Of a stretch of DNA of 64,000 nt, positions 1-18,232 are shown one piece after another (the first letter of the stretch is position 1; the number at the start of each line of letters is the position of its first letter). The notes under the pieces were generated by a model that was not told where the DNA came from, ran no database searches, and saw nothing but the letters and a program-made list of their open reading frames with translations. Source of the DNA: Komarekiella atlantica HA4396-MV6 (GTDB taxonomy: Bacteria; Cyanobacteriota; Cyanobacteriia; Cyanobacteriales; Nostocaceae); contig JAHHHK010000022.1 of assembly GCA_019359395.1 (NCBI GenBank), forward strand, positions 62,001 to 126,000. The letters are read 5' to 3'. A program made the position numbers and the translations under genes.

Positions 1-44
1 GCCCATGATTATAGTACTACATTCTCCTAATTAAAAGTCACAAA

Positions 45-173
45 TTAGAAGAAAACTCTCCACCGTCCGAGAAAAACCTCGCGGCTTCGACCGTATGGCC
101 ACGCCAACGTCGTCTTAATTGCATCACCCAACTCAATTACTTGAGGTTTAGAGTATTGTTTCTTGGTGGTCAT
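45..173 (-). CDS. lasso-peptide precursor, copy 1 (42 aa)
   Basis: This short gene reads as a ribosomally made lasso-peptide precursor. In the leader, Tyr7, Pro10, Val12, Gly16 and Thr22 fit the lasso motif YxxPxLxxxGxxxxxT, which in known systems binds the RRE/B1 protein and has its Thr at position -2 of the cleavage site. Cleavage after Leu23 would release AWPYGRSREVFLGRWRVFF, 19 residues with Ala1 and Glu9, which is the right spacing for a nine-residue macrolactam ring. The tail is cationic and aromatic. An AAGGAG box lies about 8 bases before the ATG. The maturation enzymes (leader peptidase, RRE protein, asparagine-synthetase-like cyclase, often an ABC exporter) are not in the window and should lie to the left, downstream on this strand. 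Leader fit and ring spacing are seen in the sequence; function is inferred. Confidence 0.8.
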   Translation of the reverse strand: MTTKKQYSKPQVIELGDAIKTTLAWPYGRSREVFLGRWRVFF

Positions 174-281
174 TTTTTTTCTCCTTAGTTATTGGTAGTT
201 TTGAATCGGCTTTCGTTATCAAGAGCCGTTGATTAGCTCAACAGCCCATGATTACAGTGCTACATTCTTAAAAGTCACAAA

Positions 282-410
282 TTAGAAGAAGATTCTCTTC
301 CGTCCGAGAAAAACCTCGCGGCTTCGACCGTATGGCCACGCCAACGTCGTCTTAACTGCATCACCCAACTCAACTACTTGAGGTTTAGAGTATTGTTTCT
401 TGGTGGTCAT
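282..410 (-). CDS. lasso-peptide precursor, copy 2 (42 aa)
   Basis: This is a paralogue of the precursor 108 bases downstream, with the same length and leader motif (Tyr7, Pro10, Gly16, Thr22). The predicted core is AWPYGRSREVFLGRKRIFF. It differs from copy 1 at core position 15 (Lys for Trp) and 17 (Ile for Val), and in the leader at residues 13 and 19 (Val for Ile). The presumed ring, Ala1 to Glu9, is identical, so variation falls in the tail. Multiple precursors served by one enzyme set are known for lasso clusters. The ATG is preceded by a weaker AGGA at about 8 bases. Being first in the transcript, this copy is probably read from a promoter in the gene-free region to its right. Confidence 0.8.
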   Translation of the reverse strand: MTTKKQYSKPQVVELGDAVKTTLAWPYGRSREVFLGRKRIFF

Positions 411-438
411 TTTTTTTCCTAGTTATTGGTAGTTTGAA

Positions 439-1136
439 CTGTTTTTGGTTGAAAAGCTAAATTTGTGAATCTATAAACTAGATTTCTTAGCTAATTCAAA
501 TTTATTAAATTCAACTTAGTAACACAAGATGTTTAGGCTTTTACAAAACACATAAATTAGACAATTATGTTTTAAAAAATTTAAATTTAATTATGAATAA
601 CAAAGCAAAAAAGAGTTATATTAGATAATTTCACTAATAAATCTAATAAAACTACTGTAAAACAAAGTATGAAAATGCCTCATTTTTTAATCAATCTTTT
701 CGAGACAAGTAAGTTAGCTTTATTTTATTTAATTAAAATATAGTTTTTCATTCTTAAAAATCCAGGACTTTTGTTTTTAGTATTTTTAAATATATAAATG
801 TAGGAAAGACAAGGGCGTTTTTTAGTACTCTCTTCTGCTTACAGATGCAAACTTTAGTCCTGAATTCTTCCACTTTAAGGAGTAAATTCGTTTTTCCATT
901 GCATAAAAATTAATTATAGCTATTGATGAACTAGACTATTGGAAAGTGCTGCAATTGGTAGTAAGGTCATGTAGGAGCAATGCGATCGCTGACGACAAAC
1001 CGCTGCGCGTCTACACTCCATTAAAAATGAACAAACACAGTTGCTTTATGCCTACATCACGGCTTCATGCATACACAATTATCTTGCTCAGTAATGGTTT
1101 GTAGTTCACTCAACTACTACTTTATTAGGGGGTGTA
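439..1136. other. AT-rich intergenic region
   Basis: No convincing gene is seen in these 700 bases. The region lies between divergent transcription units and should hold the promoters of the lasso precursors (leftward) and of the exoprotein gene (rightward). One HIP1 octamer occurs near 986. I could not identify promoter boxes with confidence. Confidence 0.5.
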
Positions 1137-4088
1137 ATGTCTGAAATTTTATGCAGACAGCGTTTGGGCTGGCAATTAGGGTTAGTGATTGGTGGTGCGA
1201 TCGCTTCAACTGCAAATTGTACCAACGCCCAAATTATCCCTGATGGTACTTTACCCAATAATTCTAATGTCGCACCCTCAGATAATACCAGGATTATTGA
1301 AGGAGGAACCCAAGCAGGAAGCAACCTGTTCCACAGCTTTCAACAGTTTTCTATACCGACTGGTGGCACAGCTTACTTTAATAATGCTTTAGATATTCAA
1401 AACATCATTAGTCGGGTAACGGGTAAATCTATTTCTAATATTGATGGCTTAATTCAAGCTAACGGCACAGCCAATCTATTTCTAATTAATCCCAATGGAA
1501 TTATCTTTGGCAAAAATGCAAGTTTGAATATTGGTGGGTCATTTGTAACAACAACTGCTAATGCAATTGAGTTTGGTAATCAAGGTTTTTTCAGTGCTGA
1601 CAATCCAAATACTCCTGCATTACTAACAGTTAATCCTTCAGCTTTTTTATTCAATCAAATTGCTGCACCCATTCAAAACAACTCAATAGCACCAGCCGGA
1701 ATCGCTCCATCTGGCTATAAATATTTTGGTTTACGTGTTAAAGATGGTCAAAGTTTATTGTTAGTTGGTGGCAATATCATCATGGATAGAGGGGTATTGA
1801 ATGCCTTTGGTGGGCATATAGAGTTAGGAGGATTAGCAGGACAAGGGACAGTAAAACTAAACACTGACAACAACTTAAGTTTGAGTTTTCCCAATAATGT
1901 AGAGCAAGCTGATGTATTGTTTACTAATGCTGCTGAAGCTAATGTTCGCGCTAATAACGGTGGCAGTATTACCATCACTGCTCGGAACATAGACATTAAC
2001 GATTTTAGTAAACTTGATGGTGGTTTAGAGAGAAATTTAGGATTTCCTGGTGCTCAAGCCGGAGATATTAAACTTCATGCTCAGGGAATAATTACACTTA
2101 CAAATGGTTTTATTAGCAACACGGTAGATGCTGGAGCAGTGGGCAATAGTGGTGATATCAATATCACAGCTGACTCACTCTTTTTGAATGATGGCGCTCA
2201 ATTAGATACTAGTATTTTGAAACAAAGTTCACTATTAAACCCTTTGACACGGGGCAATGCCGGAAACGTGAATGTAAATGTCCGCGATACAGTTTCCTTT
2301 GATAGCGAAGTTGGCGGCATAAGATTCACTACTACTGGCGCATTCAGTCGTGTAGAAGATAGAGCCGTAGGCAATGGCGGTGAAATCAATATTACAGCGA
2401 GAGCGCTTTTGGTGAAAAATGGAGCTGTTCTAGATGCCAGTAACTCTGAAAGTGGCAGTGCCGGGACTATAAATTTAAATGCCCGTGATACAGTCTCTAT
2501 TGATGGGGATGATAGCAGTGTAAAACTTGGAACTGTTGATAAGAGTAGTGTAATTGAAATTTTCAGCAAGGAAAATAACATTAATATTACAACTAATTCA
2601 CTATCAATAACTAATGGTGCTCAAGTAAGTACCAGCACTGATGGAAAAAGAGATGCTGGCGACATCATAATTACTGCCTCTAATGTAGAGGTAAGTGGCG
2701 CATCGAAAAACGGTAACTTTTTTAGTCGCTTGACAACTAGCACTGGGGGCGATGGCGCTGGGGGAGATTTAAGAATTACCACAGGAAAGTTAGTAATTCG
2801 TGATGCAGGACAAGTATCTAGTGGTACTTCATTTGGTAGTACTGGGAATGGGGGAACTCTGATTATAAACGCTGCTGACTCTGTAGAAGTGAGTGGATTC
2901 ATCATCAGAAAAAACGGTACAGTAGTTAGCCGTTTAACAACTCGGACTGAGGGTACTGGAAATGCTAATAATTTAGCGATTAAAACCAGAAAGTTAGTCA
3001 TCCGCGATGGGGGACAAGTATCTAGTGGGAATATATTTGGTAGTACAGGTAATGGAGGGGATTTAAATGTAGATGCCTCTGATTCTGTAGAGGTGATTGG
3101 AAAAGTAAATGGCCCAGGTGGTGAAATTAGAAGCCGTTTAACAAATCGGACTGAGGATGGTATAACTGGAAACTTGAGCATTAATACTAGAGATTTGATT
3201 ATCCGGGATAGAGGTGAAGTAGGTGTTAATAGTCTGGGAAAGTCTGCTAGGGCAGGAAACCTAAAAGTTACGGCTCGTTCTATTAAACTGGACAACGAAG
3301 GAAGACTAAATGCTAGAGCTACATCGGCGGTTGACGGCGGAAACATTACACTGAATGTGCAGGATTTCTTGCTGTTACGTCGCAATAGTCAGATATCTGC
3401 CACTGCGGACAGAGAAGGTGGTAGTGGAAACGGCGGTAACATCACAATTTATGCTCCTAATGGTTTCATTGTTGCCGTCCCTAATGAAAATAGCGATATC
3501 GCTGCTAATGCTTCCACAGGCAAAGGCGGTAGAGTCGAAATCACAGCCCAAAGTATTTTTGGATTAACACCGCGTAGCCGGCAAGAACTTCAAACTTTAT
3601 TGGAAACTAATGATCCCACAGAACTAAACCCTGCAAATCTTTCTAGTAGTGACATTACCGCGATTTCGCAAACAAATCCCTCCCTTAGTGGTCAGCTACG
3701 TCTCAACGCCCCAGATGTTAACCTCAGTCGTAGTTTAGTCAACTTGCCAGCCGTACTAGTTGATACTGAAGTAGCACAAGCTTGTACTGCGGGTGGAAAT
3801 GTCGCAAAAAGCGAATTTATGATTACTGGTCGCGGCGGCTTGCCTCCAAATCCAGGAGAAGCCCTCAGCACGGATGCTGTGCAGGTAAATTTAGTTACTC
3901 TTAAGCGAGAAGTTCAACCTCCAACAGCAGTCTTTATTAATCCGACTAGTTCAAAACCCGCTCCCCTTGTAGAAGCTCAGGGTTTAGTAATTAATGCCAA
4001 TGGCAACATGGTTCTCACCGCAAATACTCCCACTGTCACACCTTATACATCGTGGCAAAATGCTAATTGTCAAAAGCTAAAAAATTAA
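1137..4088 (+). CDS. two-partner-secretion exoprotein (filamentous haemagglutinin N-terminal domain), 983 aa
   Basis: This is a large secreted beta-helix protein of the TpsA/filamentous haemagglutinin type. The N-terminus has a hydrophobic signal region ending near residue 30 (ANCTNAQ). A TPS secretion domain follows with the typical NPNGI(I)FG motif near residue 119. The body is long and rich in Gly, Asn, Ser and Thr, with repeated GxxGxLxIxT-type strands expected of a right-handed beta-helix. The C-terminal block (VDTEVAQACTAGG, then MITGRGGLPPNPGEAL) is shared with the second exoprotein at 7474. Family members are exported by a TpsB/ShlB-type outer-membrane pore, which is not encoded here. 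The ATG is chosen because a strong AGGGGG box lies 4 to 9 bases upstream. It is followed by a TPR-CHAT gene on the same strand, 130 bases away. Confidence 0.88.
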   Translation: MSEILCRQRLGWQLGLVIGGAIASTANCTNAQIIPDGTLPNNSNVAPSDNTRIIEGGTQAGSNLFHSFQQFSIPTGGTAYFNNALDIQNIISRVTGKSISNIDGLIQANGTANLFLINPNGIIFGKNASLNIGGSFVTTTANAIEFGNQGFFSADNPNTPALLTVNPSAFLFNQIAAPIQNNSIAPAGIAPSGYKYFGLRVKDGQSLLLVGGNIIMDRGVLNAFGGHIELGGLAGQGTVKLNTDNNLSLSFPNNVEQADVLFTNAAEANVRANNGGSITITARNIDINDFSKLDGGLERNLGFPGAQAGDIKLHAQGIITLTNGFISNTVDAGAVGNSGDINITADSLFLNDGAQLDTSILKQSSLLNPLTRGNAGNVNVNVRDTVSFDSEVGGIRFTTTGAFSRVEDRAVGNGGEINITARALLVKNGAVLDASNSESGSAGTINLNARDTVSIDGDDSSVKLGTVDKSSVIEIFSKENNINITTNSLSITNGAQVSTSTDGKRDAGDIIITASNVEVSGASKNGNFFSRLTTSTGGDGAGGDLRITTGKLVIRDAGQVSSGTSFGSTGNGGTLIINAADSVEVSGFIIRKNGTVVSRLTTRTEGTGNANNLAIKTRKLVIRDGGQVSSGNIFGSTGNGGDLNVDASDSVEVIGKVNGPGGEIRSRLTNRTEDGITGNLSINTRDLIIRDRGEVGVNSLGKSARAGNLKVTARSIKLDNEGRLNARATSAVDGGNITLNVQDFLLLRRNSQISATADREGGSGNGGNITIYAPNGFIVAVPNENSDIAANASTGKGGRVEITAQSIFGLTPRSRQELQTLLETNDPTELNPANLSSSDITAISQTNPSLSGQLRLNAPDVNLSRSLVNLPAVLVDTEVAQACTAGGNVAKSEFMITGRGGLPPNPGEALSTDAVQVNLVTLKREVQPPTAVFINPTSSKPAPLVEAQGLVINANGNMVLTANTPTVTPYTSWQNANCQKLKN

Positions 4089-16960: not shown

Positions 16961-18232
16961 ATGAAGATATTTCGACTCCCTTACTTAAAACGCTTAGCTA
17001 AAGCAATTTTTCTCAGTGTGTCAGTTTTGCTCTTACTGTGGTTGAGTTCACCACTGCTACCAACCCTAGCAAAACCAGAAACTCAAGTTTTTGAGCAAGT
17101 TTGGCAAACCGTAAATGACAACTTTTACGACCCCAAGTTGAATGGAGTAGACTGGAAAGCCATTCGCGAAAAGTATAAACCTCAAGCAGAACAAGCCAAG
17201 TCTAAAGAAGAGTTTGCTGCTGTAGTCAATCAGATGCTTTCGCAATTGCGGACTTCTCACACTCGCTTCTACACTCAAGATGAACCAGCCTACTATCAAC
17301 TTTTAGGGATTTTTCTGCCCAACAATCCAGAATTACAGAAGCAGTTAAAAAAGTTTTTTCCTCAAGGCATTGAATATAGTGGCATTGGCATATTCACCAA
17401 AAACATCAATAGCAAGACCTTTGTCAGTGCCATTTTAGATGGAAGTCCAGCAGCGAAAGCTGGTTTAAAGGTGGGCGACCAAATTTTGAGTGTAGATGGT
17501 AAACCTTATCAGCCGATACAATCTTTTGTTGGTAAAGCGGATCAAAAAGTCAAGCTGTTGATTCAGCGCACGCCCAATGCTAGTAATCAGCAAGAAATTG
17601 CGATCGCCCCAAAGATACTCGATGCCACTACAATGTTTCTAGACGCTCAAGAAGCCAGTACCCAGGTCATTGAACGAGAAGGCAAGAAAATAGGCTATGT
17701 TCATATCTGGTCTTATGCAGGCGAGCAATACCAGCAACAACTTGAGGCAAACTTAATCTATGGTCGTCTTAAAAACGCAGATGCGTTAGTTTTAGATTTG
17801 AGAGAGGGATGGGGTGGTGCGTCTCCCAGTTATCTCAATATTTATACTGCTGATGGCCCAAGTTTGACTAGTATTCGACGCAATGGTAGGCAAAATACCT
17901 ATAACTATCAATGGAAAAAGCCAGTGGTTATGTTAGTAAATGAGGGTAGCCGGAGTGGTAAGGAAATACTAGCGTTTGGCTTTCAGCAAAATAAAATTGG
18001 GCCAGTAATTGGCTCTCAGACTCCAGGAGCAGTCGTTGCTGGCAGTCCTTTTATAATGCAAGATGGCAGCGTGCTTTACTTAGCAGTTGCAGACGTGTTT
18101 CTCAACGGCAACCAAAGGTTGGAGGGTAAAGGCATCACACCGGATATTAGCGTTCCATTCTCCTTAGAATACGCAGAAGGAGCAGACCCTCAAAAACAGC
18201 AGGCCATAGAGACTGTGCTCAAGGCACTCTAA
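16961..18232 (+). CDS. S41 family peptidase with PDZ domain, 423 aa
   Basis: A signal or anchor helix occupies about residues 14 to 36. The N-terminal helical domain has the S41 pattern VWQTVNDNFYDP...DW and ends with LRTSHTRF near residue 98. A PDZ domain (GIGIF...SPAAKAGLKVGDQILSVDG) spans about 130 to 205. The protease core follows with NEGSRSGKEILAF near residue 330, where Ser-x-x-Glu matches the S41 nucleophile motif. The general-base Lys found 25 residues after the Ser in CtpA-type enzymes is Ala here, but the upstream Ser-His (TSHT) resembles the tricorn-type charge relay. It is probably an envelope or lumenal protease; the substrate is unknown. Confidence 0.85.
   Translation: MKIFRLPYLKRLAKAIFLSVSVLLLLWLSSPLLPTLAKPETQVFEQVWQTVNDNFYDPKLNGVDWKAIREKYKPQAEQAKSKEEFAAVVNQMLSQLRTSHTRFYTQDEPAYYQLLGIFLPNNPELQKQLKKFFPQGIEYSGIGIFTKNINSKTFVSAILDGSPAAKAGLKVGDQILSVDGKPYQPIQSFVGKADQKVKLLIQRTPNASNQQEIAIAPKILDATTMFLDAQEASTQVIEREGKKIGYVHIWSYAGEQYQQQLEANLIYGRLKNADALVLDLREGWGGASPSYLNIYTADGPSLTSIRRNGRQNTYNYQWKKPVVMLVNEGSRSGKEILAFGFQQNKIGPVIGSQTPGAVVAGSPFIMQDGSVLYLAVADVFLNGNQRLEGKGITPDISVPFSLEYAEGADPQKQQAIETVLKAL

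Follow-up and report, generated by a model that had tools for sequence, protein, structure and literature searches.

The DNA analysed here, referred to as the window, is a stretch of 64,000 nucleotides from Komarekiella atlantica HA4396-MV6 (bases 62001-126000 of contig C16 in a 7.78 Mb genome). At its left edge lie two short genes in tandem, and within 5.2 kb to the left of the window lie the genes C, B1, B2 and D. Features outside the window are numbered in locus L005, in which position 18001 is window position 1.

L005:12926-14908, minus strand: D, ABC transporter with an ABC ATPase domain
L005:15100-16998, plus strand: C, asparagine-synthetase-like cyclase, 632 aa (NF033561, Pfam Asn_synthase)
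L005:17079-17354, plus strand: B1, PqqD-like leader binder, 91 aa (Pfam PqqD)
L005:17426-17845, plus strand: B2, transglutaminase-like leader peptidase, 139 aa (NF033537, PF13471)
L005:17971-18013 (right end, window 1..13), folded on the minus strand: hairpin of 19 perfect pairs between B2 and copy 1
Window 45..173, minus strand: A1, lasso precursor gene copy 1, open reading frame of 42 aa with ATG start, predicted core AWPYGRSREVFLGRWRVFF after Leu23
Window 181..186, minus strand: AAGGAG, ribosome-binding-like, 5' of copy 1, read from the sequence
Window 214..256, minus strand: second, diverged hairpin between A1 and A2, 3' of copy 2 (fold, repeat and genome pattern search)
Window 282..410, minus strand: A2, lasso precursor gene copy 2, open reading frame of 42 aa with ATG start, predicted core AWPYGRSREVFLGRKRIFF after Leu23
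Window 417..420, minus strand: AGGA, a weaker ribosome-binding-like site 5' of copy 2, read from the sequence

The order is therefore D (-), C B1 B2 (+) >< hairpin, A1, hairpin, A2 (-), with the enzyme genes converging on the precursors. To the left of D, two overlapping frames encode an IS4-family transposase (L005:11635-12787).

Precursor genes and maturation enzymes

Both 42-codon frames are real lasso-peptide precursor genes. An initial annotation of the window had interpreted them in this way, and the adjoining C, B1, B2 and D genes support that interpretation. The frames lie where it had placed them, on the minus strand with ATG starts, and the residues of its leader pattern (with Val at the Leu place), of the cleavage site at Leu23 and of the Ala1/Glu9 cores match. 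Copies 1 and 2 share the leader residues Y7, P10, V12, G16, T22 and L23, which gives each a short leader with Tyr-x-x-Pro and Thr at the penultimate place, and in both cores an acidic residue stands within positions 7-9. This residue, Glu9, is the only acidic one in each core, so an Ala1-Glu9 bond is the sole side-chain macrolactam possible. The predicted monoisotopic masses of the closed forms are 2410.26 for the copy 1 core and 2366.29 for that of copy 2, with net charges, counting R, K, D and E, of +3 and +4.

The two copies differ in four codons, all nonsynonymous, with no silent differences; the leader has I13V and I19V, and the core has W15K and V17I. A case for positive selection on the cores would have just these four codon differences behind it. 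The duplicated unit takes in a 3' hairpin as well as the gene. The 151-nt gene-bearing stretch is 96% alike between the copies and the 51-nt hairpin stretch 78%, indicating that the frames have been held while the stretch 3' of them drifts. Copy 2 passes the NCBIfam lasso leader model NF033521 (19.3 bits, cut-off 19), whereas copy 1 scores below it (13.6 bits). In its own genome, copy 1 matches the precursor profile A1 at E 3.7e-21, a profile that includes copy 1's own row. A regular expression for leader plus acceptor, composed after the finding was known, matches 2 stretches of the window itself and none in 100 mononucleotide-shuffled versions of it.

Maturation genes had been expected within 10 kb to the left and on the minus strand. 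The distance proved right, as C, B1, B2 and D show, but of these four the strand held only for the transporter D; C, B1 and B2 are encoded on the plus strand. C passes NF033561, the model of albusnodin/ikarugamycin-type macrolactam cyclases (352.7 bits, cut-off 300), and Pfam Asn_synthase (92.2, cut-off 21); it carries SGGFDS and has no Cys at position 2. B1 passes Pfam PqqD (46.1 bits, cut-off 23.4) and stays below the cut-off of the NCBIfam lasso B1 model (51.3 bits vs 70), while B2 passes both NF033537 (66.4 bits, cut-off 33) and PF13471 (64.4, cut-off 26). All 12 aligned B2 proteins keep the Cys in GRxACxE and the His in HxWxE, and the residue 12 after this His is Glu in 12/12. Microcin-type B proteins have Asp at this spacing. 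D matches PF00005 at 117.9 bits (cut-off 25), with a transmembrane region just short of its Pfam cut-off (27.7 vs 28), and is the probable exporter of the peptide; an ABC exporter is usual in lasso clusters and not required. The locus thus holds a PqqD-like B1/RRE, a transglutaminase-like B2, a macrolactam cyclase C and an ABC exporter. The initial annotation had named a different RiPP enzyme set as evidence against its reading, and a scan of nine proteins (D, C, B1, B2, the two A, both transposase frames and one further ABC ATPase) showed no modifying enzyme beyond the lasso set. Against solved structures, phmmer found no relative of C (E up to 0.001) and for B1 a single weak match, an engineered protein (E 0.0082); neither the cyclase nor copy 1 had a matching record in a plasmid collection.

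Hairpins 3' of the precursor genes

The copy 1 hairpin folds at -27.8 kcal/mol (z -7.85) and the copy 2 hairpin at -20.6 kcal/mol (z -4.41). A similar hairpin with paired changes also lies 3' of precursor genes in two relatives (L013 and L009). When the two regions here, that of L013 and two of L009 were aligned on the structure of copy 1, 90.4% of cells paired, and both sides had changed in 6 of the 19 pairs. Six double-changed pairs were reached by 1/500 shuffles, the covariation score by 0/500 and the number of pair types by 41/500, values to be read with the five sequences being few and chosen for a similar hairpin and the shuffles ignoring relatedness. Among 14 precursor 3' regions folded, those of L006, L008a/b, L010a, L010b1 and L011 also beat all 40 shuffles, with hairpins of a sequence other than the one here; for L008c/d and L010b2 the fold was not better than all 40.

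These hairpins are most likely terminators or transcript ends. A simple terminator scan of window 1-1200, a range that cuts the first hairpin, gave no consensus terminator, and promoter-like sites in the same range stood at chance level (4 found vs 3.8 expected). A dispersed repeat was also considered for the hairpin and rejected. Its pattern, allowing 2 mismatches at most, occurs at 7 places genome-wide and that of a reversed control at 1; two of the 7 are at the lasso locus, 4 of the other five have a different common core sequence, GGTCTTTTGGGGAAT, and none of these five shares a contig with a precursor-profile match.

Related loci and their predicted cores

A search of genome contigs with C, which reaches close relatives only, returned 8 loci, all with cyanobacterial names. 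The comparison covered 13 cyclase loci, namely the window locus, relatives, a second locus of the same genome (L020, contig C61), and L024 and L025 from two further genomes; L023 was left out because it duplicates the stretch of L007, and L010 holds two cyclases. A precursor stands beside 12 of the 13, the exception being L012, where the contig ends about 590 bases past B2, and the C-B1-B2-A set recurs, whole or in part. At 8/12 loci the enzyme genes are followed by precursors on the opposite strand; at the other 4 (L007, L020, L024, L025) the precursors precede the enzyme genes on the same strand. The locus of Nostoc sp. MG11 (L013) is arranged alike, as D, C B1 B2 >< A, with D, C, B1 and B2 identical to those here at 96, 88, 97 and 88%, a core, AFRVPNRREIVFNRGRIFF, with Ala1 and Glu9, and the similar hairpin 3' of A. 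It differs in that one precursor gene was found where there are two here, and only 3/9 ring residues are shared with copy 1. At L010, no separate B1 match goes with the second C, and in Scytonematopsis contorta (L006:8001-10275) C and a precursor occur with no B1 or B2 match adjoining; as L006 and L010 belong to one genome, their B proteins may be shared and act in trans.

The distribution of the cluster is sparse and patchy within the order. The cyclase protein (E <=1e-100) was found in 4/388 sampled genomes of the order, K. atlantica included, and the precursor profile (E <=1e-4) in the same 4, while among 388 sampled genomes of the class the NF033561 family (E <=1e-60) was found in K. atlantica alone. 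The sole other genome of the genus in the list, G347, had neither cyclase nor precursor. The cyclase tree does not establish a single origin of the convergent gene order: 5 of its 10 inner branches are open, and Microseira, with co-directional precursors, adjoins the Ala1/Glu9 clade (93/91, not starred).

An alignment of 16 precursors has invariant Tyr, Pro, Thr(-2) and Leu(-1), and one invariant core Arg. Together with L008d and a further Microseira precursor of L039, and excluding identical second copies in L007 and L010, these rows yield 18 distinct cores, each with exactly one Asp/Glu within positions 7-9 (at 8 in 3, at 9 in 15). Arg immediately precedes this ring-closing residue in 18/18, a count drawn from related sequences collected by homology rather than from independent draws. 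By eye, this Arg is absent from two other loci of the same genome, L022 and L021, which have other cyclase types. Assuming cleavage after Thr-Leu throughout, the predicted first core residues are Ala, Gly, Ser, Leu and Trp, and also Arg and His in Nostoc sp. PA-18-2419. In that strain four precursor genes stand in tandem (L008:11279-12675), three of which have predicted cores starting with Arg or His; either is unusual as the first residue of a lasso ring. At L009:11065-11190, a paralogous precursor with the leader Gly replaced by Asp has a Gly1-Glu8 core and adjoins an Ala1-Glu9 precursor, so that the predicted ring size differs inside one cluster.

Related cores have bulky tail residues. The initial annotation had described a shared ring and a variable tail, which holds for the pair in the window but not for their kin, in which the ring is no less variable than the tail. 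Averaged over all pairs of the closest clade's six precursors, identity is 0.70 for the leader, 0.46 for the ring and 0.57 for the tail, and copy 1 compared with four precursors of other species gives about equal values for ring (0.33-0.50) and tail (0.40-0.50). These identities indicate that a shared ring with a variable tail is no rule here. As judged from the aligned cores, Arg before the acceptor is a possible subfamily signature. A broader proposal, which we regard as rather doubtful, is that these loci form a cyanobacterial sublineage of their own whose lasso peptides are basic, with an obligatory Arg before the acceptor, a nearly free residue 1 and a B2 with Glu in place of Asp; this branch of cyclases would recognise the Arg as a handle on its substrate.

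The same genome holds further lasso-type loci. A second lasso cluster with the same cyclase family (L020:6003-11443) has a precursor core, GWRGWRRDHRYHRRRRRHGGGHGGHGGHGGWH, whose acceptor is Asp8 and whose long tail, rich in His and Gly, has a metal-binding look by eye. The third locus (L021:4314-8269, contig C66) has a fused B1-B2 protein of 257 aa, a cyclase, a 2OG-Fe(II)-oxygenase-like protein whose weak match (34 bits) stays under the cut-offs of the models, and a candidate precursor, picked by eye only and with no model match, that ends in GYWGYWDDWGGYYS. The fourth (L022:2473-8175, contig C22) comprises a cyclase relative, a B2 match, an ABC transporter relative, a second cyclase piece with a stop within the aligned stretch and a precursor resembling NCBIfam lasso_cyano (NF033528, 30.5 bits vs 33).

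Proposed pathway and place among lasso peptides

Taken together, the locus is read, with a probability of roughly 0.94, as a complete-looking split-B lasso-peptide cluster of which the left edge of the window holds only the two precursor genes. From the observed genes, with their family assignments and arrangement, and from the hairpins, a pathway can be inferred. The precursors would be translated from their own minus-strand transcript or transcripts, with the hairpin after each gene acting as a terminator or 3' stabiliser. Going by known RRE systems and the invariance seen here, B1 would bind the leader via Tyr7 and Pro10, after which B2 would cleave behind Thr22-Leu23. C would then activate Glu9 using ATP and link it to the Ala1 amine, forming a nine-residue ring around the tail, which bulky residues (candidates are Trp15 or Lys15, Arg16, Phe18 and Phe19) would hold in place, and D would export the peptide. 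Two products are predicted, with Trp or Lys at 15 and Val or Ile at 17. As to their role, our guess is a secreted cationic peptide, most likely directed against related bacteria.

Threading is not readable from sequence, copy 2 has the weaker ribosome-binding-like site, and the codon changes between the copies are all non-silent; a lasso-like cluster with a closed but unthreaded (branched-cyclic) product, or with one copy unprocessed, could account for these points. This is nevertheless unlikely, as the full enzyme set of threaded lasso pathways is present, the frames are open and related cores carry bulky tail residues. The two-frame transposase left of D could suggest a decayed cluster whose genes are silent or dead beside a broken IS4-type element, yet all six genes, the two precursors included, have open frames, and C, B1, B2 and D retain 88-97% identity to the Nostoc sp. 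MG11 set, which makes decay very improbable. The least probable alternative, one to which we give hardly any weight, is a different RRE-dependent RiPP pathway with the same leader style. The leader models are short and their matches weak, but the enzyme set is the lasso set and no other modifying enzyme occurs among the nine proteins scanned.

As a system, the split-B lasso cluster is ordinary and its peptide class is known; similarly built cyanobacterial lasso clusters have already been published. A lasso cluster has also been reported from Chlorogloeopsis. In the passages describing Roseofilum MAGs, which name no precursor, a lasso cluster has an RRE of 98 aa, a transglutaminase-like peptidase of 135 aa, a cyclase of 633 aa and flanking ABC-transporter genes, sizes near the 91, 139 and 632 aa here (PMC9967302). 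The Cyanocohniella sp. LLY cluster, as described, has a precursor, C, B2 and B1, but its peptide starts with Gly (PMC9332814), whereas here residue 1 is Ala and there are two precursors, which converge on the enzyme genes; for both clusters the comparison is with the published descriptions. Despite the cyclase match, the albusnodin precursor model NF033525 is not passed (copy 2, 12.3 bits vs 30; copy 1, no match), and no acetyltransferase, a trait of the albusnodin family, is among the nine proteins scanned, a scan that reaches rightwards as far as the precursors. Neither copy matches NF033528 up to E 1. Caulonodin-type lasso peptides are proteobacterial, have a fused B protein and reportedly carry Ala and Ser as N-terminal residues. 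A residue 1 other than Gly is the likeness to them, and the title announcing these peptides speaks of "unprecedented N-terminal residues" (Zimmermann 2014). In the literature as covered, these cores and the Arg rule were not found reported, although the RODEO survey may list some (PMC5391289), and the phrase "cyanobacterial lasso peptide" matched no paper in a literature search.

Cyanobacterial lasso peptides have been termed underexplored in the Roseofilum account (PMC9967302), and the cluster belongs to this little-studied branch of the family. From one strain it yields two predicted masses, and the 18 related cores provide a set on which an Arg-before-acceptor cyclase rule can be tested.
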